This document shows positions 30,818 through 41,210 of a DNA stretch of 64,000 nucleotides, one piece after another. The stretch lies in NCBI RefSeq assembly GCF_001010945.1, contig NZ_LBHB01000001.1, positions 62,001-126,000 of the forward strand. Direction: 5' to 3'. Origin of the DNA: Aurantiacibacter luteus (GTDB taxonomy: Bacteria; Pseudomonadota; Alphaproteobacteria; Sphingomonadales; Sphingomonadaceae). Each line of letters begins with the position of its first letter. The stretch's first letter is position 1. Below the pieces are notes generated by a model. That model had not been told where the DNA came from, made no database searches, and saw only the letters and a program-made list of their open reading frames with translations. The translations under genes and the position numbers were made by a program.

Positions 30818-31312
30818 ATGATCCCGCGCCACGTCATCGCCCTGCTCGCGCTGTTGCTGGGCGGCTGCGGCGACGATCCCGACAACGTGCCCGAATACGG
30901 CCAGTGGGAGCTCGTCCGCACGCTCGATTCGGTGACCATAGACGGCATGGTGCTCGCGCCCGAGGGTGTTGCCGAGTTCCGCCAGTTCGAGGGCACGGAG
31001 CAGCACTGCGGGGAGCCTATCTACACCCGGGCCGAGTGGCAGGCGGACGATGTTTCCGACCGCACCGGCGGGCAGTGCGAGCTGACAGACTACTCGCACG
31101 ACACGCGCGGCGCGCGGCTAGTCGGACGTTGCACGATCGAAGGCGAGGGGGTGGAATATACGCCCACGCTCACCGGCCGCTCGACCTTCGATGCCACTTC
31201 CACGCGCGACGTCGTGACGATGGAGGGCACTCTCACCGTTCCCGGCGATTCCTCGCCCCACGTGATGAAGGCCATCGCCGTGCAGGAGGGGCGGCGCATC
31301 GACGATTGCTAG
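30818..31312 (+). CDS. DUF3617-like lipoprotein, first of four
   Basis: The protein (164 aa) has a lipoprotein signal (LLALLLGGC, Cys17) and the DUF3617 pattern of small periplasmic proteins. It has [15 protein letters not shown] near the start, Cys in EQHCGEP, Cys in GGQCEL, Cys in VGRCTIEG and a terminal R-x-D-D-C. The start follows ACAGGAGGAATGCC. Function is unknown. Three related genes follow in the same direction, with gaps of 68 and 155 nt and then an overlap, so this is a tandem family. Homology among them is judged from the shared layout and the common C-terminal (R-x-x-D-C) motif. Confidence 0.75.
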
Positions 31313-31380
31313 GGCGCTTGATCGCGGGCGGGCCATGCGGCACCCTCGCGCCATCGACTGCCGCCGAGGGGAAGACCTTA

Positions 31381-31968
31381 TGCCACGCCAATTCGTCGCC
31401 AACCTGGCCATAGCTGCCGCTGCACCCCTGCTGATGCTGGCTGCCCTCGAACGATCCCGGCGACGAGGCCGATGCCGATACCGCTGCCGCGACCGAAACC
31501 GGGAGCGAAGAGCAGACCGGCATGGCGGGGGCGGCGACCCGGCTGGGCGAGGAAGGGATGCGCCCGCAGGCCGGGCAGTACCGCGTGACCACCGAGCTGC
31601 TGGAATTCTCCATGCCGGGCGCGCCGGCCGGGGCCGCCGACATGATCCGCCAGCAGATGGCCGAGAACCAGGGCAGCGAATATTGCCTGACCCAGGCCGA
31701 GGTCGACGAAGGCTATGAGGAAATGGCACGCCGTTCGCAGGAGGCGGGCGAGAACTGCAGCTTCAGGCGCTTCGATGCGAACGGCGGCAACATCGATGCC
31801 GAGATGGTCTGCGCCACGCCGGGGCAGGGCGAGATGACCGTCACAATGACGGGGCGGGGCACGCCGACGAGCTCGGTGATGGAGACGCGCCTCACCGGAT
31901 CGCTGCCCGGCATGGGCGAGATGGCCATGCGCGCCCGCGCCACGCACGAGCGCATCGGCGATTGCTGA
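31381..31968 (+). pseudogene. DUF3617-like lipoprotein, second of four, frameshifted
   Basis: From the ATG at 31381 (RBS GAGGGGAAG) the frame reads a clean signal peptide, MPRQFVANLAIAAAAPLLMLAA, then LERSRRR in a basic run. The DUF3617 body (GMRPQAGQYRVTTELLEFSMPG to ERIGDC) lies in another frame from about 31450. Inserting TG after position 31445 would restore LMLAACSNDPGDEADAD and join the two. This suggests a 2-nt deletion that removes the lipobox cysteine. Either the gene is dead or there is a base-call error. The body could still be made from an internal ATG at 31522, but it would lack a signal peptide. Confidence 0.7.
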
Positions 31969-32123
31969 CCCGGCACGACGCTTGCACGGCTGGCCCGATT
32001 TGGGACGCGCCGCGCGGCGCGCGCCCGGGGTCATTGGCAGCGCGCTGCCGCGAGGGTAGCCCAACGGCCGATCGCATTGCGCCAGCTCGCGCCGTGCCGC
32101 CGGAACCGATTGAGGATACGACC

Positions 32124-32663
32124 ATGCGCCCGACCCGTCCTGCCCGCACCCTTCTCCCGCTTGCCGCGGCGCTCGCCCTCGCGGCCTGCAATTCGGAAGA
32201 GCCCGCGATCGATGCCGCGCTGACCGGGGAGGAGGTCGCCGGAATGTCCGACAATGGCACCGCGCTGCAGCCGGGCGAATATTCCACCGCGCTGGAACTG
32301 ATCGAGATCGACGCGCCCGGCGCGAGCGAAGAGCAGCTGGCCGAAATGCGCTCCGAATTCGCCAGCGGCGCCGAAGAACCGCAGCTCTATTGCGTCACCG
32401 ACGGGATGAGCCGCGAGGATTGGCTTTCCGCGATGGCGCAGGCTAGTTGCACGCTTTCGAGCCTCACTGCCGAGGGCAGCTCGATCGAAGGAGCGATGTC
32501 GTGCAACGCCGACGAGGGCCTGAACGGACGGGTGGAATTTGCCGGCACGGTGAACCAGTCCGACGCCGACCTGCGCCTGACCTATCCGCTGCCGCTGCAA
32601 ACGGGCGAGGCGACCGTGCGGTTCGGCGTGAAGTCCCAGCGCACCGGCGACAGCTGCGGCTGA
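32124..32663 (+). CDS. DUF3617-like lipoprotein, third of four
   Basis: The product (179 aa) has a signal peptide ending ALALAAC, so Cys would be lipidated. The body contains LQPGEYSTALELIEIDAPGASEEQ, closely like the second copy (ELLEFSMPGAPAG). Cys residues lie in LYCVTDG, ASCTL and MSCNAD, with a C-terminal RTGDSC. Its last codons overlap the presumed start of the fourth copy. Function is unknown; a periplasmic binding or stress role is only a guess. Confidence 0.78.
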   Translation: MRPTRPARTLLPLAAALALAACNSEEPAIDAALTGEEVAGMSDNGTALQPGEYSTALELIEIDAPGASEEQLAEMRSEFASGAEEPQLYCVTDGMSREDWLSAMAQASCTLSSLTAEGSSIEGAMSCNADEGLNGRVEFAGTVNQSDADLRLTYPLPLQTGEATVRFGVKSQRTGDSCG

Positions 32664-33211
32664 TCGCGCTGCTCGCGGCGGCGGGCCTGGCGCTCGTCGC
32701 CTGCGGTGACGACGGCCCGGTGGACGAGCGGGTGCTGATCGCCCGCGCGGACACGCTGCCACGGCCGCAGCCCGGCCTCTATCGCACCACCAACACGCTC
32801 GTCAGCTTCGCGATGGCCGATCCCGGCCCGGCGGACGAGGCCTTTGCGCGCGAGAACCTGCGCACCGGCATCGAGTCGCAAGGCGAGCATTGCATCACCG
32901 CTGCGCAGGCCGCGCGCGGCTATCGCCCGATGCTGGAAGCGATGAACGAGGACCAGTGCCGGTTCGACCGTTTCGACGTGGACGGCGAGCGCGCCGCGGC
33001 CGAGATTGACTGCGGCCAGCAGGGTGCCGCGACCATGCAGATCGCCATGACGATGACGGCGCGGGCCACTTCCTCGCGCATGGAAAGCCGCGTCGTGCAG
33101 ACGGGCCCGGACGTTCCCGGCCAGCGGCTCGAACTGGTGCGGCTCACCGAAAGCGAGCGGATCGGCGAATGCCCCGCACCCGCTCCGCCGCAGGCCGCGG
33201 CGCCGGGCTGA
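32654..33211 (+). CDS. DUF3617-like lipoprotein, fourth of four, non-canonical start
   Basis: The frame gives a perfect lipoprotein leader RLIALLAAAGLALVAC and then a DUF3617 body (RPQPGLYRTTNTLVSFAMADPG, EHCITAAQA, DQCRFDRF and a terminal ESERIGEC). No ATG, GTG or TTG precedes it in frame within a sensible distance. The best start is a CTG at 32654, overlapping the stop of the third copy. The length would be 185 aa. Either a rare CTG start with coupling is used, or the original start was lost through an indel. The body itself looks intact. Confidence 0.6.
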   Translation: MRLIALLAAAGLALVACGDDGPVDERVLIARADTLPRPQPGLYRTTNTLVSFAMADPGPADEAFARENLRTGIESQGEHCITAAQAARGYRPMLEAMNEDQCRFDRFDVDGERAAAEIDCGQQGAATMQIAMTMTARATSSRMESRVVQTGPDVPGQRLELVRLTESERIGECPAPAPPQAAAPG

Positions 33212-33213
33212 GC

Positions 33214-34011
33214 GTGCCGCTGTTTCCCGTCGAGAGCGACGAGGAGCCGCTCCTCGCCCGCATGAAGCGCGGCCTCGCGGGCATGGGCTCGGCGCTCGCG
33301 GGCAGGGCGCAGCTGATGCGCGGCACTGCGCCGGCCGAGGCCCATGTCCCGCCGCTGCGACTGTTCCTTGCAGAGCTCGGCGCCGTGGCCGAGCCGCTGC
33401 GCATCCGCTTCCGCCCCGACCTGCCGATCAGGCCTGCGCAAAGGCCGCGCGTCGTCATCCTTATCCCCGGTTTCGCCACCGGGCCCACGCGCATGCGCTA
33501 CATGGCCGAGCAGCTCGAGCGCGCCGGGCACACAGTCAAGCGCTGGGGCCTGGGACACAACATGGGCCCTACGCCCGAGACGCTGGACCTGATCGCCGCG
33601 CGGGTAGAGCAGGTGCGCGAACGCTACGGGCAGCAAGTTGTGCTGGTGGGCTGGAGCCTGGGCGGGGTCTTCGCGCGCGAGGTCGCCAAGCGCGTGCCGC
33701 AGCACGTCGCCAAGGTAGTGACGATGGGATCGCCTTTCAGCCACACGCCCTATTCCAACAATATCTGGCGAACCTACCAGGTGGTCGCCGGGCACCGGGT
33801 GGAGGCGCCGCCCGTCGCCGCCGACCCGCGAACCAAGCCGCCGGTCGAGACGGTCGCCTTCTGGAGCCCGCGCGACGGCGTGATCTCGCGCCGGGCGGCC
33901 AGCGGCACTGCGGACGAGCGCGACCGGGCGGTGGCCCTCAGGTGCACGCACCTCACCTTTCCCACCTCGCCCGACTGCATCATGGCGCTTGTGCGGGAAC
34001 TGGAAAGCTGA
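33214..34011 (+). CDS. Alpha/beta-hydrolase fold protein
   Basis: The 265-residue product has the nucleophile elbow GWSLGG, an oxyanion segment in VVILIPGFATGPTRMRYMAEQLERAGH, and a C-terminal His in RCTHLTFPTSPD. The layout resembles small bacterial lipase/esterase or acyltransferase-like proteins. There is no signal peptide, so it is probably cytoplasmic. I choose the GTG at 33214, 2 nt after the previous stop; an ATG at 33169 would overlap that gene by 43 nt and read antisense-like residues. It is 45 nt before the ATP-grasp gene, so it may belong to the same transcript. Confidence 0.7.
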   Translation: MPLFPVESDEEPLLARMKRGLAGMGSALAGRAQLMRGTAPAEAHVPPLRLFLAELGAVAEPLRIRFRPDLPIRPAQRPRVVILIPGFATGPTRMRYMAEQLERAGHTVKRWGLGHNMGPTPETLDLIAARVEQVRERYGQQVVLVGWSLGGVFAREVAKRVPQHVAKVVTMGSPFSHTPYSNNIWRTYQVVAGHRVEAPPVAADPRTKPPVETVAFWSPRDGVISRRAASGTADERDRAVALRCTHLTFPTSPDCIMALVRELES

Positions 34012-34056
34012 CAACCCTGTTATAGAGAGGAGGCGCCGCGACCGTGCAACGGGGCG

Positions 34057-35529
34057 GTGAACGCCGCGTCACACTCTCGAGGGGTCATCACCGTTTCCGA
34101 GCAGCCGACATTCGACGAGATGCACGCGCCCGACGGTTCGGTGCGCGAGGCCTATGCCGGCTATCAGGAATGGCTGGGCGCGCAGGACGAGAGCTGGATG
34201 CGCTCGAAGAACTTCGAGGCGGAGAGTTTCTTCCGCCGCACCGGCATCACCTTCAACGTCTATGGCGAGGACGATGCCGAGGAACGGCTGATCCCCTTCG
34301 ACATGGTGCCGCGCATCATCACTGCGGGCGAGTGGCGGCGGCTGTCGAAGGGCATCGAGCAGCGGGTGAGGGCATTGAACGCTTTCATGCACGATCTCTA
34401 CCACCGGCAGGAGATCATCCGTTCCGGCCGCCTGCCCGAACGCCTGTTCCGCAACAACAAGGCTTGGCTGCCGCAGATGGTGGGCTTCAACCCGCCCGGC
34501 GGCGTCTACACGCACATCACCGGCATCGACCTGGTGCGGACCGGCCCGGACGAATTCCTGGTGCTGGAGGACAATGCGCGCACTCCGTCGGGCGTCAGCT
34601 ACATGCTGGAAAACCGCGAGACGATGATGGCCATGTTCCCCGAGCTGTTCAGCAAGGTGAACGTGCGCCCCGTGTCGGATTATCCGCGCCGCCTCGCCAA
34701 CAGCCTCGCCGCCTGCGCGCCCGAGGCGGTGGCCAAGGGTTCGGGCGGCAAGCCGACCATCGCCGTGCTGACGCCGGGCATCTACAATTCCGCCTACTAC
34801 GAACACGCCTTCCTCGCCGACCAGATGGGCGCGGAACTGGTCGAGGGCAGCGACCTGCGCGTGGTGAACGGCCGCGTGCAGATGCGCACCACGATAGGGT
34901 TCAAGCCGGTCGACGTGATCTATCGCCGGGTGGACGACGAGTTCCTCGATCCACTCACCTTCAATCCCGCCAGCGTGCTCGGCGTGCCGGGCATCATGGA
35001 TGTCTACCGCGCGGGCCGGGTCACCATCGCCAATGCGCCGGGCACGGGCGTGGCGGACGACAAGGCGATCTATTCGTTCATGCCCGACATCGTGGAATTC
35101 TACACCGGCGAGAAGCCGCTGCTGCCCAATGTCGATACCTGGCGCTGCGCCGATCCAGATTCGCTCAAGTACGTGCTCGACAACCTTGCCGAACTGGTGG
35201 TGAAGGAAGTGCACGGCTCGGGCGGTTACGGCATGCTGATCGGCCCGACGTCGAGCAGGCAGGAAATCGAGACCTTCCGCGCCAAGCTCATCGCCGATCC
35301 GGACAACTACATCGCCCAGCCCACGCTCTCGCTCTCGACCTGCCCGATCTTCACCCGCAAGGGTCTCGCCCCGCGTCACGTCGACCTGAGGCCCTACGTG
35401 CTGTGCTCGCCCGACGGGGTGGAAATCACCCCCGGCGGACTGACCCGCGTGGCGCTGAAGAAGGGTTCGCTGGTGGTCAACTCCTCGCAGGGCGGCGGCA
35501 CCAAGGACAGCTGGGTGCTCGATGACTGA
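34057..35529 (+). CDS. Circularly permuted ATP-grasp protein (Anbu cluster)
   Basis: The product (490 aa, GTG start) belongs to the circularly permuted ATP-grasp family (formerly DUF404/407). Visible blocks are FNVYGEDDAEERLIPFDMVPRII, RALNAFMHDLYHRQEII, VLEDNARTPSGVSYMLENRETM, VVKEVHGSGGYGMLIGP and the C-terminal VNSSQGGGTKDSWVL. Such proteins are thought to form amide bonds using ATP. The next three genes encode an alpha-E protein, a transglutaminase and Anbu, the set repeatedly found together in bacteria with Anbu. The substrate is unknown; peptide ligation is inference from the family. Confidence 0.88.
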   Translation: MNAASHSRGVITVSEQPTFDEMHAPDGSVREAYAGYQEWLGAQDESWMRSKNFEAESFFRRTGITFNVYGEDDAEERLIPFDMVPRIITAGEWRRLSKGIEQRVRALNAFMHDLYHRQEIIRSGRLPERLFRNNKAWLPQMVGFNPPGGVYTHITGIDLVRTGPDEFLVLEDNARTPSGVSYMLENRETMMAMFPELFSKVNVRPVSDYPRRLANSLAACAPEAVAKGSGGKPTIAVLTPGIYNSAYYEHAFLADQMGAELVEGSDLRVVNGRVQMRTTIGFKPVDVIYRRVDDEFLDPLTFNPASVLGVPGIMDVYRAGRVTIANAPGTGVADDKAIYSFMPDIVEFYTGEKPLLPNVDTWRCADPDSLKYVLDNLAELVVKEVHGSGGYGMLIGPTSSRQEIETFRAKLIADPDNYIAQPTLSLSTCPIFTRKGLAPRHVDLRPYVLCSPDGVEITPGGLTRVALKKGSLVVNSSQGGGTKDSWVLDD

Positions 35530-35544
35530 GAGGGGGCCGCTATC

Positions 35545-36489
35545 TTGCTAGGCCGCGTCGCTAACGGCATCTTCTGGATGTACCGCTACCTCGAACGGGC
35601 GGAGAATACCGCGCGCCTGCTCGCCGCCGGGCACCGCATGACGCTGACCCGCGGGCCGGACGTCGCCAGTCAGGAATGGAAGTCGGTGCTGACCACGCTC
35701 GGCCTCAAGAGCGCCTACGAGGCGCGGCACGGCGACTATACCGGCGCGCAGGTGAGCGATTTCGTGCTGCGCAGCCGCCACAATCCGGAAAGCGTGCTGT
35801 CGATGGTGGAACGCGCGCGTACCAATGCCCGCTCGTGCCGTTCGGCGCTGACCGGCGAGGTCTGGGAAGCGGTCAACGAGGGGTGGATGTCCTTGCGCGA
35901 CCTGCTGGAAAAGCCCGTGCGCGATGCCAACCTCAACCAGTGCCTGCACGCCATCCGGCGGGAGAGCACGCTGGCGCGCGGGGCGACCCACGGCTCCATG
36001 CTGCGCAACGAGACCTACGGTTTCGCGCGGCTGGGCACTTTCCTCGAACGGGCGGACAATACCGCGCGAATCCTCGATGTGAAATACTACCTGCTGCTTC
36101 CCTCGCTCAGCTATGTCGGGACTGCGCTCGACAGCGGGCAGTGGGACAACGTGCTGCGCTCGCTTTCGGCCGAGCGCGCCTATCGCTGGCTTAACGCAGG
36201 GCGCATGGACGCGCGCTCCATCGCCGACTTCCTGATCCTCGACACGCGGTTCCCGCGCAGCCTCGTGTTCTGCTACGCCATGATGCGCCAGAACCTTTCC
36301 GAGCTTGCCCAGCTCCACGGCGAGGAGAACGAAGCGCACATGCGCATGCGCGAGGCCGACCTGCGCCTCGCCGATCGCACGATCGAACAGATCTTCGACC
36401 AGGGTCTGCACGAATTCCTGATCGACTTCATCGCCGGCAACCAGGCCATCGCCGGTGCCATCGCCCAAGACTATCGTTTCACCAACTAG
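35545..36489 (+). CDS. Alpha-E domain protein (DUF403)
   Basis: The 314-aa protein (TTG start) is an all-helical alpha-E protein. It opens with MLGRVANGIFWMYRYLERAENTARLLAAGH, the family's N-terminal signature, and repeats the pattern in FARLGTFLERADNTARILDVKYYLLLPS. It also has RFPRSLVFCYAMM. Alpha-E proteins are almost always encoded beside permuted ATP-grasp and transglutaminase genes and are sometimes fused to the ATP-grasp, so they likely form a complex. The start is 15 nt after the ATP-grasp stop. No catalytic residues are recognisable. Confidence 0.9.
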   Translation: MLGRVANGIFWMYRYLERAENTARLLAAGHRMTLTRGPDVASQEWKSVLTTLGLKSAYEARHGDYTGAQVSDFVLRSRHNPESVLSMVERARTNARSCRSALTGEVWEAVNEGWMSLRDLLEKPVRDANLNQCLHAIRRESTLARGATHGSMLRNETYGFARLGTFLERADNTARILDVKYYLLLPSLSYVGTALDSGQWDNVLRSLSAERAYRWLNAGRMDARSIADFLILDTRFPRSLVFCYAMMRQNLSELAQLHGEENEAHMRMREADLRLADRTIEQIFDQGLHEFLIDFIAGNQAIAGAIAQDYRFTN

Positions 36490-36506
36490 GGGAGAGGAGA
36501 CAGACG

Positions 36507-37322
36507 ATGCGCCTCTCGATCCGCCACACCACGCGCTATCGCTTCGCCGATTCCGTGTCGCACGGCGTCCAGCGATTGCGCCTGACGCCCAAGGAAACGC
36601 AGGGCCAGACGATCCTCGACTGGTCGATGTTCTACGAAGGCGCGCAAGAGCAGCTGAGCTACGACGACCAGAACTTCAACCACGTCACCCTGATCGCGGT
36701 GGAAGAGGGCGCGCGCGAGGTCGTCGTGACCTGCCAGGGTCACGTGCAGACCGAGGACAATGCGGGCGTCATCGGACAGCACGCCGGGCACCTGCCGCTG
36801 TGGGCCTTTCTCGGTTATACGCCGCTGACGAAGCCGGGGCCGAAGATCAAGGCGCTGATCGCCAAGGTCGAGCGCAGCGCAGACGGCATGGTCGGCACCC
36901 TTCACAACCTGTCCGCCGCCATCCGCGAAAGCGTGGAATACGGGGTGGGCACCACGGGCGTCAACACGACGGCGGAAGAGGCGGTCGTCTGCGGAAGCGG
37001 CGTGTGCCAGGACCACGCGCATATCTTCATCGCCGCCGCGCGCAGTCTCGACATCCCGGCGCGCTATGTGTCCGGCTACCTGATGATGAACGACCGCATC
37101 GAACAGGACGCGACCCACGCCTGGGCCGAGGCGCACGTGCAGGGACTGGGCTGGGTGGGCTTCGATATCTCCAACGGCATCAGTCCCGATCCGCGTTACG
37201 TGCGCGTGGCGACGGGCCGCGACTATGCCGACGCAGCGCCCGTCACCGGCATTTCCTTCGGCGCGCTGACCGAGGATCTTCAGGTCGATCTCTCGGTGGA
37301 GCAGCAAACGGTGGAACAGTAA
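36507..37322 (+). CDS. Transglutaminase-like cysteine peptidase family protein
   Basis: The product (271 aa) has a transglutaminase N-terminal domain (MRLSIRHTTRYRFADSV) and a transglutaminase core. The triad is clear: Cys167 in GSGVCQDHAH, His204 in THAWAE and Asp220 in GFDISNG. In bacteria such enzymes often cut rather than crosslink peptides. RBS GGGGAGAGGAG precedes the ATG, 17 nt after the alpha-E stop. It belongs to the Anbu cluster; with the ATP-grasp protein it may form a peptide-making and peptide-breaking pair, an inference from conserved linkage. Confidence 0.9.
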   Translation: MRLSIRHTTRYRFADSVSHGVQRLRLTPKETQGQTILDWSMFYEGAQEQLSYDDQNFNHVTLIAVEEGAREVVVTCQGHVQTEDNAGVIGQHAGHLPLWAFLGYTPLTKPGPKIKALIAKVERSADGMVGTLHNLSAAIRESVEYGVGTTGVNTTAEEAVVCGSGVCQDHAHIFIAAARSLDIPARYVSGYLMMNDRIEQDATHAWAEAHVQGLGWVGFDISNGISPDPRYVRVATGRDYADAAPVTGISFGALTEDLQVDLSVEQQTVEQ

Positions 37323-37367
37323 GCCGCGCCCTTTGCCCGCGTGTCCGCCCGGAGGTAGACCCTGCCC

Positions 37368-38123
37368 ATGACCTATTGCGTTGGAATGGTTCTCGACAAA
37401 GGCCTCGTGCTGATGAGCGACACCCGGACGAACTCGGGCGTCGACAACATCTCGGTGTTCCGCAAGATGTTCACCTGGTCCAAGCCCGGCGAGCGGATCA
37501 TCTCGATGATGACCGCGGGCAACCTTGCCACTACCCAGGCAGTCATCAGCAAGCTGGAGGAGCGCACCAAGACCCCGGCGGAGCGCAACAACTCGCTGAT
37601 GGAACTGCCCACCATGTTCCAGGTGGCCGCCGAAACCGGCGCACTGCTGCGCGAAACGGTGAAGGAGACGCAGGAGAGCAACGGCGCGCGCGGGCGCGGG
37701 CGCTTCACCGCATCGATCATCCTGGCCGGCCAGATCAAGGGCATGGAGCCGCGCCTGTTCCTGATTTATCCGGAAGGCAATTTCATCGAGGCGAGCTTCG
37801 ACACGCCGTTCTTCCAGATCGGCGAGACCAAGTACGGCCGTCCCATCATCATTCGCGGCTACGACCGGCAGATGAGCTTCGAGGACGCGGTAAAGCTGCT
37901 GATGGTCAGTTTCGATTCGACCCTCAAGGCCAATCTCTCCGTCGGTCTGCCGCTGGACTTGCTGGTGATCGAACGCGACACCTTCGAGCGCACGCACGAG
38001 AAGCGCATCGAGCACACCGATCCCTATTTCGACGCGATCTCGAGCAGCTGGAGCGACGCGCTGCGCAACGCCTTCCACTCGCTGCCGGATTACTCGTTTT
38101 ACCAGCCCAGTGAAACTACGTAG
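37368..38123 (+). CDS. Anbu, ancestral proteasome beta-type subunit
   Basis: The 251-residue protein matches Anbu, the bacterial proteasome/HslV-related peptidase. It starts MTYCVGMVLDKGLVLMSDTRTNSGVD, so removal of Met would expose Thr as the nucleophile. The SDTRTN and ISVFRKMF blocks supply the usual Asp/Lys pair, and RFTASIILAGQI follows. Length and the adjacent ATP-grasp, alpha-E and transglutaminase genes agree with the class described in comparative work. No unfoldase partner is in the window; in known cases Anbu assembles on its own. RBS GGAGGTAG. The gene ends the cluster. Confidence 0.92.
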   Translation: MTYCVGMVLDKGLVLMSDTRTNSGVDNISVFRKMFTWSKPGERIISMMTAGNLATTQAVISKLEERTKTPAERNNSLMELPTMFQVAAETGALLRETVKETQESNGARGRGRFTASIILAGQIKGMEPRLFLIYPEGNFIEASFDTPFFQIGETKYGRPIIIRGYDRQMSFEDAVKLLMVSFDSTLKANLSVGLPLDLLVIERDTFERTHEKRIEHTDPYFDAISSSWSDALRNAFHSLPDYSFYQPSETT

Positions 38124-38220
38124 TGCTGCCGCGAATTTGCCTGACGTTGAAATGCTCTGATAGCTTGAGCGACACAGAAACTGACTAATTACTCGCAAGA
38201 TCACTGCCCACTAAGTGCGT

Positions 38221-38238
38221 TTCCGTAGTTTTACGGAA
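38221..38238. promoter_or_regulatory. Short palindrome upstream of LuxR-type gene
   Basis: TTCCGTA (38221-38227) and TACGGAA (38232-38238) are perfect inverted arms around a 4-nt loop in an AT-rich stretch, 60 nt before the regulator's start codon. It may be an operator for that regulator or a small hairpin. There is no homologous copy in the window that I could see. Confidence 0.35.
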
Positions 38239-38267
38239 TGCTTTTCTCCGCGTTTCCACGGCACAGT

Positions 38268-38289
38268 CCCCGCATCACAATTTGCGGGG
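38268..38289 (+). promoter_or_regulatory. Hairpin covering the Shine-Dalgarno of the LuxR-type gene
   Basis: CCCCGCA (38268-38274) pairs with TGCGGGG (38283-38289) around an 8-nt loop. The only purine-rich candidate ribosome-binding site before the ATG at 38298 is the GCGGGG in the 3' arm, so the fold would hide it. This could give translational control. Confidence 0.4.
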
Positions 38290-38297
38290 CAATTCAG

Positions 38298-38993
38298 ATG
38301 GATCAGCGAATTACGATGCACATCGTGGGCGGCGACAGCCGTTCGCGCGCCGCCCAGTCGCGGATGGTGCTGTCGATGGGCCACCATGCCGAGGTCTACT
38401 CCGATCTCGTCGAGCTGCTCGATCGACCGCCGGTGGACGGCATCATCGTCGCCTCCAGCAACGTGGCCCGGGAAGGGACGGTCGAACTGCTCGAGGAACT
38501 GGCCGACAACGGCATCTGGCTGCCGCTGGTCGCCGCTTGCGAGGATCCGGGCGTGGACGAGGTCGTGGCGGCGATCCAGGCGGGCGCGCTCGACTTCATC
38601 TCGCTGCCGATGACCGAGGACGAACTGCGCCGCGTGGTCGCCCATGTCCGCTCCGATGCCGGCCGCCATGCCGAGGCGCGGCGACGCCTGATCGACGCGC
38701 GCCGACGCATCTCGGCCCTGTCGAAGCGCGAACGCGAGGTGCTCGACTGGCTGAGCGAGGGCTGCTCCAACAAGGCCATTGCCCGCGAGCTGGAAATCAG
38801 CCCGCGCACGGTGGAGATTCACCGCGCCAACATGATGGGCAAGCTGGGCGCCAACCACGCTGCCGAGGCGGTTCGCCTGCGGCTCGAGGCGGGGACACGT
38901 CGCCGAAAAAAGCCGGTGGCGGCGGCCCGGCGCGCTACTGACACGCAGGGCGAACTGATCCAGACCATGATCATCCCGCAGCGAATAGGGTGA
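38298..38993 (+). CDS. LuxR/FixJ-type regulator with degenerate receiver
   Basis: The product (231 aa) has a receiver-like N-terminus (about 5-120) and a C-terminal LuxR helix-turn-helix (LSKREREVLDWLSEGCSNKAIARELEISPRTVEIHRANMMGKLG, about 140-185). At the place of the phospho-acceptor Asp the sequence is DGIIVASSN, with no Asp, and the N-terminal acidic pair reads VGGDSR. Phosphorylation is therefore unlikely, and it may be constitutive or respond to a partner. The ATG at 38298 is the only good start. It is isolated, with a hairpin over its ribosome-binding site and a palindrome upstream. Confidence 0.82.
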   Translation: MDQRITMHIVGGDSRSRAAQSRMVLSMGHHAEVYSDLVELLDRPPVDGIIVASSNVAREGTVELLEELADNGIWLPLVAACEDPGVDEVVAAIQAGALDFISLPMTEDELRRVVAHVRSDAGRHAEARRRLIDARRRISALSKREREVLDWLSEGCSNKAIARELEISPRTVEIHRANMMGKLGANHAAEAVRLRLEAGTRRRKKPVAAARRATDTQGELIQTMIIPQRIG

Positions 38994-39001
38994 TCTGTCT
39001 G

Positions 39002-39023
39002 CGAAGCCGCGTCCGCGGCTTCG
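39002..39023 (+). terminator. Hairpin after the LuxR-type gene
   Basis: A 9-bp perfect stem CGAAGCCGC/GCGGCTTCG (39002-39010 and 39015-39023) with a GTCC loop starts 9 nt after the stop codon. There is no T-tract after it, so it is a candidate terminator or RNA-stabilising element only. A second GC-rich hairpin is centred near 39060. Confidence 0.5.
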
Positions 39024-39136
39024 TCCTCGCTAGACGCGCTCCGCCTTCCGCCGCGCCCGCTGCGGGCGGGCGGTCGCGCCCGTCGGCGAAGCTCAGGACA
39101 GGCTTGCGGTCGGATGGTCGCCGACCGGGGTGAATC

Positions 39137-39847
39137 TCATCGACAATACGAATTCCCCTCGACCACGCCTTCGACATGAAGGTGATCGTGGTGCGCGGCA
39201 TTGTAGTCCGGGCCCAGCACCGTGCCGAAGCGGCGGCAGGCGCTGCGCTGCACCGTGCGCAGGAACTCGCGCTCGGCCGCGGTGCCGCCGTTCCAGCCCG
39301 CCTGCACGGTAATGCGCCGCCCGTCGGCGAGGGTGAAGCCGCCCACGTCGATCGCCGCCGCGGTGGCGTGGGCCGATCGGCGGGTGCTGCCCGCCACGTT
39401 GCGGCACGAATAGCTGCCCATCGTCTGGATGCTCGCCAGCGGGCTGCCGAGGATCTGCCGCGCCGCGCGGTCCACGCCGAACCGCGCCCAGGCGGCGAAT
39501 GCGGCGCCGACCGGGCAGGTGACGGGGCCGATGTTGCTGACGCCGAGATCGCCCGAATCGCCGCGAAGGGCATGCATCTGCACAGTGCCGAGCGTGGCGC
39601 AGCCCTGCTCGCGGTACCGGTCGGGCAGGGGGTCGAAGCGCACGCCGCTCTGGCCCAGTGCGCTCAGGCACTGCGCCGCGGCGGCACTGCGGGCGGCGGG
39701 CAGCGGCGCGGCGATGCGCGGAGCGGGGGCGGTCGACGCGCGGCCCGCGTTCGTCGTGCGGGCGTCCCGCTCACCGCCGCCGCCCGGCAGCATGGAGCAT
39801 CCCGCGAGCGCGAGGCTCAGGAGAGGGAGTAGCGCGATGGTCCTCAT
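39137..39847 (-). CDS. Extensin-like C-terminal domain lipoprotein
   Basis: The product (236 aa) has a lipoprotein signal (LLSLALAGC, Cys17) and an extensin-like C-terminal domain, a bacterial family with a D-Ala-D-Ala-peptidase-like fold. Blocks are CPVGAAFAAWARFGVD, SYSCRNVAGSTRRSAHATAAAIDVGGF and the terminal HHDHLHVE. The His/Asp set resembles the zinc site of M15 peptidases, so a cell-wall role is plausible. The nearest start is the ATG at 39847 (another is 9 nt upstream). Upstream in-frame extension is unlikely. Confidence 0.83.
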   Translation of the reverse strand: MRTIALLPLLSLALAGCSMLPGGGGERDARTTNAGRASTAPAPRIAAPLPAARSAAAAQCLSALGQSGVRFDPLPDRYREQGCATLGTVQMHALRGDSGDLGVSNIGPVTCPVGAAFAAWARFGVDRAARQILGSPLASIQTMGSYSCRNVAGSTRRSAHATAAAIDVGGFTLADGRRITVQAGWNGGTAAEREFLRTVQRSACRRFGTVLGPDYNAAHHDHLHVEGVVEGNSYCR

Positions 39848-40049
39848 GGCGATCATCCTGCGGCGTTCAGCGTCCCCCGTGGTTAGGACCGGCATGGTTA
39901 ACACCGCTCTAACGCGCCGCATCGTCGCGGGCGGCGGAACCGGCAGACGGTTTCGCAAGTAACCTTTGACTCGTGACCACGCATCCCTAGTGCCGCCGGC
40001 GGGCCACGCGGTCCCAACGCCGCGCGAGCTCTCTGCAAGGAGAGAATAC

Positions 40050-41210
40050 ATGACTGACCAACCCGCTCTGAAGCCGGAGCGCCCGTTCTTTTCGTCCGGC
40101 CCCACCGCCAAGCCTCCGGGCTGGTCGCTGGACAAGATCGACACCCGTAGTATGGGCCGTTCGCACCGCTCGAAGCTCGGCAAGTCCCGCCTCAAATACG
40201 CCATCGACCTCAGCCGCGAACTGCTGGGCGTGCCCGACGACTATCTCGTCGGCATCATGCCTGGCAGTGACACCGGCGCGCTGGAATGCGCGATGTGGAC
40301 CATGCTGGGCGCCGGGCCGGCGACGGTCGCGGCGTGGGAAAGCTTCGGCAACGTGTGGATTCAGGACGCGGTCAAGCAGCTCAAGCTGCCCGACCTGACC
40401 GTGCTCGAGGCCGACTACGGCGAAATCCCCGACCTCGCCAGCATCCCGCAGGACAACGACGTCGTCTTCACCTGGAACGGCACCACCTCGGGCGCGAAGA
40501 TCGCGGACACCGACTGGCTGGTTCCAGGCCGCAAGGGCGTGACGATCAACGATGCCACCAGCGCCGTCTTCGCGCAGGAGATGGACTGGGCCAAGCTCGA
40601 TGCCACCACCTACTCGTGGCAAAAGGTGATGGGCAGCGAGGCCGCGCACGGGATGCTGGTCCTCAGCCCCAAGGCCGTCGAGCGCATCGAGAGCTACGAT
40701 CCCGCCTGGCCTCTGCCCAAGCTGTTCCGCCTGAAGAAGGGCGGCAAGCTGAACCGCGACATCTTCGAAGGCGCGACCATCAACACCCCCTCCATGCTGG
40801 CGACCGAGGATTACATCGTCAGCCTCGAATGGGCGCAGTCTATCGGCGGGCGTCAGGCCATGTTCGAGCGCGCCGACGCGAACGCGAAGATCGTCACCGA
40901 CTGGATCGAGGCGACACCGTGGCTGCGAAACATGGTGCCCGACCCGGCCCAGCGGACCAACACCGGCGTGTGCATGGTCTTCCAGGGCGACTGGTACGAG
41001 AGCCTTTCGCCCGACGATCAGGCCGCGGTGCCGAAGAACATTGCTTCCAAGCTGGAAGCGCTGGACGTCGGCTACGACTTCAACGGCTACCGCGACGCCC
41101 CGCCGTCCTTGCGCATCTGGTGCGGCGGCTCGGTCGAGCAGGAGGACATCAAGCGCCTGCTGCCGTGGATCGAGTGGGCCTATGCCGAGGCGCAGGCCGG
41201 GCGGCTCTAG
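40050..41210 (+). CDS. serC: Phosphoserine aminotransferase
   Basis: The 386-aa protein is the PLP-dependent transaminase of serine synthesis and, in some bacteria, pyridoxal synthesis. It has the alphaproteobacterial-type N-terminus RPFFSSGPTAKPPGW, IMPGSDTGALECAMW, FTWNGTTSGAKI and the PLP-Lys block YSWQKVMGSEAAHG. RIWCGGSVEQEDI lies near the end. The ATG at 40050 follows AAGGAGAGAATAC. Two REP-like elements separate it from serA, with which it forms the serine pathway. pdxJ, which also depends on this route in some organisms, is elsewhere in the window. Confidence 0.95.
   Translation: MTDQPALKPERPFFSSGPTAKPPGWSLDKIDTRSMGRSHRSKLGKSRLKYAIDLSRELLGVPDDYLVGIMPGSDTGALECAMWTMLGAGPATVAAWESFGNVWIQDAVKQLKLPDLTVLEADYGEIPDLASIPQDNDVVFTWNGTTSGAKIADTDWLVPGRKGVTINDATSAVFAQEMDWAKLDATTYSWQKVMGSEAAHGMLVLSPKAVERIESYDPAWPLPKLFRLKKGGKLNRDIFEGATINTPSMLATEDYIVSLEWAQSIGGRQAMFERADANAKIVTDWIEATPWLRNMVPDPAQRTNTGVCMVFQGDWYESLSPDDQAAVPKNIASKLEALDVGYDFNGYRDAPPSLRIWCGGSVEQEDIKRLLPWIEWAYAEAQAGRL

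Follow-up and report, generated by a model that had tools for sequence, protein, structure and literature searches.

The 64,000-nucleotide stretch of the Aurantiacibacter luteus genome analysed here (the window) contains, on the forward strand at positions 34057-38123, what is, practically beyond doubt, an intact Anbu operon of the known four-gene kind, encoding a circularly permuted ATP-grasp protein, an Alpha-E protein, a transglutaminase-like cysteine enzyme and the proteasome-type peptidase Anbu. The cluster in this genome (2.89 Mb in 22 contigs) is an ordinary, complete member of an already known cluster type. What is new here is that Anbu looks to depend on Alpha-E in a one-sided manner, that the alpha/beta hydrolase gene preceding the operon lies outside the cluster, and that Alpha-E is an internal duplication. 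Anbu was detected in 69 of 200 genomes sampled across the phylum, and these results narrow the question of what the operon does.

The four genes of the Anbu operon

The first gene (34057..35529) encodes a 490-residue protein that matches the entire Pfam profile CP_ATPgrasp_2 (PF14403; E=2.3e-164, 547 bits, positions 1-374 of 374) and has a solved relative, 3n6x, covering residues 16-490 (E=6.7e-192); judging by its sequence family, it is a putative amide-bond ligase. Its exact start is uncertain, with no well-placed ribosome-binding site seen upstream of the GTG at 34057. The Alpha-E protein (35545..36489, 314 residues) is recognized by PF04168 with E=3.2e-87, and the transglutaminase-like protein (36507..37322, 271 residues) by Transglut_core (E=1.3e-21) and Bact_transglu_N (E=6.1e-19). 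The fourth protein (37368..38123, 251 residues) matches the Proteasome profile (PF00227; E=1.6e-11) and is identified as Anbu, an N-terminal nucleophile (Ntn) hydrolase, by its best solved relatives, 5loy, 5nyj, 5nyf, 5nyw and 5lox (E from 1e-83 to 6.1e-62), of which 5nyw and 5lox are named just 'Peptidase', the others being Anbu-type entries in the PDB. The four frames are separated by 15, 17 and 45 nucleotides. An initial interpretation made from the letters alone (the sequence-only reading) had given the same genes, positions and gaps, and had described the set as known from genome surveys, with an unknown substrate; all of this stands, and passages of PMC5666114 and PMC6376114, both citing Valas and Bourne 2008 and Iyer et al. 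2009, describe exactly such an operon. A chance explanation of the gene set is excluded because of the Pfam profile scores and the conserved gene order.

Anbu and the cysteine enzyme both retain their expected residues. The intact threonine noticed in the sequence-only reading is Thr2 (Thr1 of the mature protein), which, along with Asp18 and Lys33 (counted with the initial methionine), is invariant in 18 aligned Anbu sequences, so that the N-terminal threonine, Asp17 and Lys32/33 expected of Anbu peptidases are present as T2, D18 and K33. In the transglutaminase-like protein, Cys167, His204 and Asp220 are invariant across 50 rows, and both the Cys-His-Asp triad and the fold are in place. We take these two sets to be the catalytic residues. 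For Anbu, this assignment agrees with PMC6376114.

Conservation of the operon and the one-sided dependence of Anbu

In the family sample (99 genomes, G000, the source genome, included), Anbu is present in 82 genomes, Alpha-E and ATP-grasp in 83 each, and the transglutaminase N-domain in 82. The full order ATP-grasp, Alpha-E, transglutaminase-like enzyme, Anbu is found at 73 of the 83 Anbu places, and at 76 of 80 loci in a named set that consists of the closest 80 of at least 597 confirmed relatives and is hence biased, with most members from Alphaproteobacteria. Thus, the outcome that the sequence-only reading named as its refutation, one or other of the four genes being lost from most relatives that carry Anbu, is not what the genomes show. 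The 10 incomplete places in the family sample include two at contig ends (L045, L068), two without a transglutaminase-like gene and six solo Anbu genes, one of which (L090) has a gene for arginyl-tRNA-protein transferase downstream on the opposite strand. In the named set, L163 and L172 end too early, at contig ends, L165 is a solo gene, and L144 lacks ATP-grasp and Alpha-E: at L144:5884-7811, on a metagenome-assembled contig, the span from inside the hydrolase gene to the transglutaminase-like gene is gone, with the latter and Anbu remaining, which is either a deletion or a misassembly.

So which part of the operon is its core? In the phylum sample, where only Anbu and Alpha-E were searched and Alpha-E counts take in its fused form, Anbu was detected in 69 and Alpha-E in 112 of the 200 genomes; 68 genomes have both, 44 have only Alpha-E and a single one (G190) only Anbu. 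Given that 68 of the 69 Anbu genomes possess Alpha-E and 44 of the 112 Alpha-E genomes lack Anbu, it looks as if Anbu mostly needs Alpha-E and not the reverse. In the family sample, 79 genomes have both, three only Anbu and four only Alpha-E (G027, G028, G055, G091). The tight gene order is the rule in the family sample and in the named set, and loosens across the phylum. ATP-grasp and Alpha-E form a core that, together with the transglutaminase-like gene, is more constant than Anbu.

The internal duplication of Alpha-E

Comparison of the two halves of Alpha-E with hhalign yields a probability of 96.9 (E=1.7e-10, 29% identity over 83 columns), and the alignment scores 66.1, whereas none of 30 column shuffles scored above 21.1. 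The Glu-Arg pair that Pfam denotes the 'ER motif' occurs once in each half, as E17-R18 and E168-R169, and both pairs are identical in all 29 rows of a hand-chosen alignment (14 single-gene proteins and 15 fused ones). Altogether, R14, E17, R18, R99, E168, R169 and R238 are the invariant residues of Alpha-E. By these sequence comparisons, Alpha-E consists of two helical repeats with an invariant Glu-Arg pair in each, and the pairs might form a binding site for an acidic group. No solved relative was found by sequence (best match E=0.91). The AlphaFold2 model has a mean predicted local distance difference score (pLDDT) of 89.2 and a predicted template modelling score (pTM) of 0.88; neither of two fold searches gave a hit exceeding the noise level stated for helical proteins, a result that falls short of proving a new fold. 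A bolder scenario, in which Alpha-E is a pseudo-twofold helical protein of unrecognized fold whose Glu-Arg pairs complete the ATP-grasp protein, the two making up a new kind of two-part ligase that adds an amide mark or polymer to a target in the cell, with Anbu as an optional eraser recruited later, strikes us as hardly likely.

The preceding hydrolase gene and other neighbours

The alpha/beta hydrolase gene (33169..34011; Abhydrolase_1, E=1.8e-11) ends 45 nucleotides before the ATP-grasp gene on the same strand, and a block with this gene before the operon is found in 40 of the 99 family-sample genomes. The sequence-only reading suggested that it might be a further member of the system; we find such a fifth member extremely unlikely. 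Of the complete operons in the family sample, 38 are accompanied by the hydrolase, and every one of these has uvrB within the same stretch; the other 35 have neither gene, though L048, one of them, is truncated at a contig end, and both genes are on its other fragment, L120. Among the complete operons of the named set, 17 have the hydrolase and uvrB (the hydrolase being non-adjacent in two, L139 and L149), 56 have neither, L129 and L151 have uvrB and the operon without the hydrolase, and L146 has the hydrolase without uvrB. Conversely, the hydrolase persists where all four operon genes are absent: at L121, it is followed by an extensin-like gene, and at L122, by a LuxR-type gene 187 nucleotides on. 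Both junctions lie inside single contigs of genomes (G018 and G082) that are 85% and 66% complete and have no match genome-wide to Anbu or the other three operon families.

The divergence of the genes tells the same story. In 32 loci having all eight genes compared, the four operon genes are mutually correlated in their pairwise distances (rho 0.48-0.66), and their correlations with the hydrolase (0.03-0.34) are weak and similar to those with uvrB (0.17-0.29), the extensin-like gene showing 0.07-0.12. For three of the four operon genes, the hydrolase values lie above almost all those from 500 permutations, and the same holds for uvrB, an excess that common descent alone would yield. Thus, we have to conclude that the hydrolase is a neighbour from the uvrB synteny block. 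A solo Anbu gene (L084) also has an alpha/beta hydrolase gene directly upstream, but this one is unrelated, with no match to that of the window.

Upstream of the hydrolase, at 30818-32663, three frames in tandem match DUF3617 (the match of the first falls below the Pfam cut-off), and many related loci have relatives of these in the interval from uvrB to the hydrolase. On the other side, a gene at 38238-38993 (+) encodes a LuxR/FixJ-like regulator with a weakly matching receiver domain (PF00072, E=0.0047). In 49 of 58 uvrB-block loci, such a gene follows Anbu directly, after a gap of 118-591 nucleotides, and its distances correlate with those of the four operon genes (rho 0.35-0.46) and not with those of uvrB, the hydrolase or the extensin-like gene; L122 retains it without the operon. 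Regulation of the cluster by this protein is possible in this lineage.

Possible functions of the operon

The sequence-only reading had considered a small peptide tag or product that might be made and afterwards cleaved or degraded. The possibility that we tentatively put forward is that the operon builds a product and then cuts it. ATP-grasp enzymes activate carboxylates; in this scenario, the ATP-grasp protein would use ATP to activate one, with Alpha-E as a partner that might help bind an acidic substrate or intermediate, and the two would form an amide or isopeptide bond. The transglutaminase-like enzyme would then trim or transfer the conjugate, and Anbu would act downstream as a dispensable Ntn hydrolase, cleaving either the product or proteins that bear it. 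The gene set and its order, the intact catalytic residues, the one-sided dependence of Anbu and the fusion of ATP-grasp with Alpha-E in a sister system are the observed basis of this proposal; ATP-grasp and Alpha-E could be viewed as a joint ligase because of that fusion, found in 15 stretches. A homologous ATP-grasp protein has been reported to release phosphate from ATP (PMC6376114). Several reports also point to nitrogen metabolism: in Burkholderia, the ATP-grasp, Alpha-E and transglutaminase-like genes are listed as dependent on NtrC and sigma-54 (PMC5491218, where the passages on these genes leave Anbu unmentioned), the same families have been linked to urea metabolism in marine metagenomes (PMC3597751), and COG3484, the proteasome-type protease, is listed among predicted sigma-54-regulated functions of Proteobacteria (PMC12316311).

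Several observations weigh against this build-and-cut scenario. Over the phylum, Alpha-E is directly upstream of Anbu within 1.5 kilobases (kb) at only 42 of 69 places, with 18 placed otherwise within 10 kb, five far away on the same contig, and four either on a different contig or absent. Two places are without the transglutaminase-like gene: L085, where Alpha-E is broken and the genome is 86% complete with 7% contamination, and L109. Solo Anbu genes, without partners nearby, account for six of the 83 family places (L082, L084, L090, L098, L099, L106) and one of the 80 in the named set (L165); of the six family genomes with a solo gene, G011 and G031 carry the triad on a different contig (L125, L126), G081 has a full operon elsewhere (L102), and three (G052, G053 and G075, of the 82 Anbu genomes), those from which L082, L084 and L090 come, have no partner-family match anywhere. 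According to the experiments described in PMC6376114, Anbu proteins did not cut three standard substrates of the 20S proteasome, specific interactions between the operon proteins were sought and none found, and phosphate release by ATP-grasp was not stimulated by Anbu, glutamine or glutamate. The authors of PMC5666114 prefer plain protein degradation and rate a peptide-synthesis role less likely, and they report unchanged Anbu expression under several conditions other than nitrogen limitation. Finally, neither the window nor the region upstream of the gene in 146 loci yielded a sigma-54 promoter signal; therefore, the link to nitrogen may not hold in this lineage.

Could the operon serve for degradation proper? 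Anbu might be a general protease, ATP-independent or with an unknown activator, that increases the turnover of proteins under nitrogen shortage, with the other three proteins modifying or preparing the substrates or Anbu itself. The existence of solo Anbu with an intact Thr-Asp-Lys set (in all five aligned, L082, L084, L090, L098 and L099) speaks for this possibility, as do the dodecameric open ring, the binding of proteasome inhibitors and the upregulation in nitrogen-limited P. putida reported in PMC5666114. We nonetheless consider it rather unlikely, given the lack of activity on the 20S substrates, the presence of Alpha-E in nearly all Anbu genomes of the phylum sample, which a free-standing protease would not need, and the HslV that the source genome already encodes (G000:C11:959856-960368, L227), so that two proteasome-type peptidases coexist. 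Tagging of proteins, with a ligase attaching a peptide tag that a deubiquitinase-like Anbu removes, or with Anbu degrading the tagged proteins, was proposed in earlier work, as restated in PMC6376114, and would account for two enzymes capable of making amide bonds next to a proteasome relative. It appears quite improbable to us: there is no space for a tag gene among the four genes (flanking frames were examined from 90 amino acids up), and the many Alpha-E genomes without Anbu are odd for a tag remover or reader.

The same short gaps speak for another possibility, in which a small metabolite, for example an amino acid-polyamine or a peptide amide, would be made and recycled by the cluster without any protein target, the cysteine enzyme and Anbu acting as amidases. 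The closest solved relative of the ATP-grasp protein bears the depositor's name 'putative glutathionylspermidine synthase', and PMC6376114 argues that there are Ntn hydrolases which cleave amides other than peptides. However, no product is known, amidases of small molecules do not usually form rings of proteasome-like subunits, and glutamine and glutamate left phosphate release unstimulated; we regard this explanation, too, as rather unlikely. ATP-grasp and Alpha-E are worth assaying jointly, the hydrolase can be omitted from such assays, and genomes that lack the whole unit, Anbu only, or the transglutaminase-like gene only provide natural controls.

Two candidates could be discarded. An HslVU-type ATP-dependent protease was considered, and no AAA+ ATPase is encoded among the four genes or the six further frames scanned at 30818-40204. 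The C-terminal tail of ATP-grasp, GGG-x-KD-[TS]-W-V, is present in 136 of 151 Anbu-bearing loci with ATP-grasp and also in six of 11 sets without adjoining Anbu (among the five sets that lack the tail, two come from genomes encoding Anbu at another site); therefore, it is not an HslVU-like activator specific to Anbu.

Comparison with known systems

The nearest known system is the Anbu operon of Proteobacteria as cited in PMC5666114 and PMC6376114, where Anbu structures are reported and the homologues described as open-ring or helical multimers: as far as those accounts go, the four families, their order and the intact residues are identical, and no difference was found in the four genes; only the local neighbours, namely the uvrB block, the hydrolase and the LuxR-type gene, are particular to this lineage. 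HslVU shares with the cluster a peptidase of the Ntn-hydrolase proteasome family, but the partner here is a ligase-type ATP-grasp protein, with no AAA+ ATPase gene among the four. With 3n6x, the likeness to ATP-grasp is near full-length, its function being the depositor's name only. The sister set (L207-L221), whose fused protein has no match in the source genome, comprises the same three enzyme families as the window cluster but lacks Anbu: a single frame of 843-956 amino acids (mostly about 850) encodes ATP-grasp and Alpha-E as one fused protein, with a transglutaminase-like gene adjoining, and in many of these stretches a large transglutaminase-like frame (about 1100 amino acids or more) precedes the fused gene.
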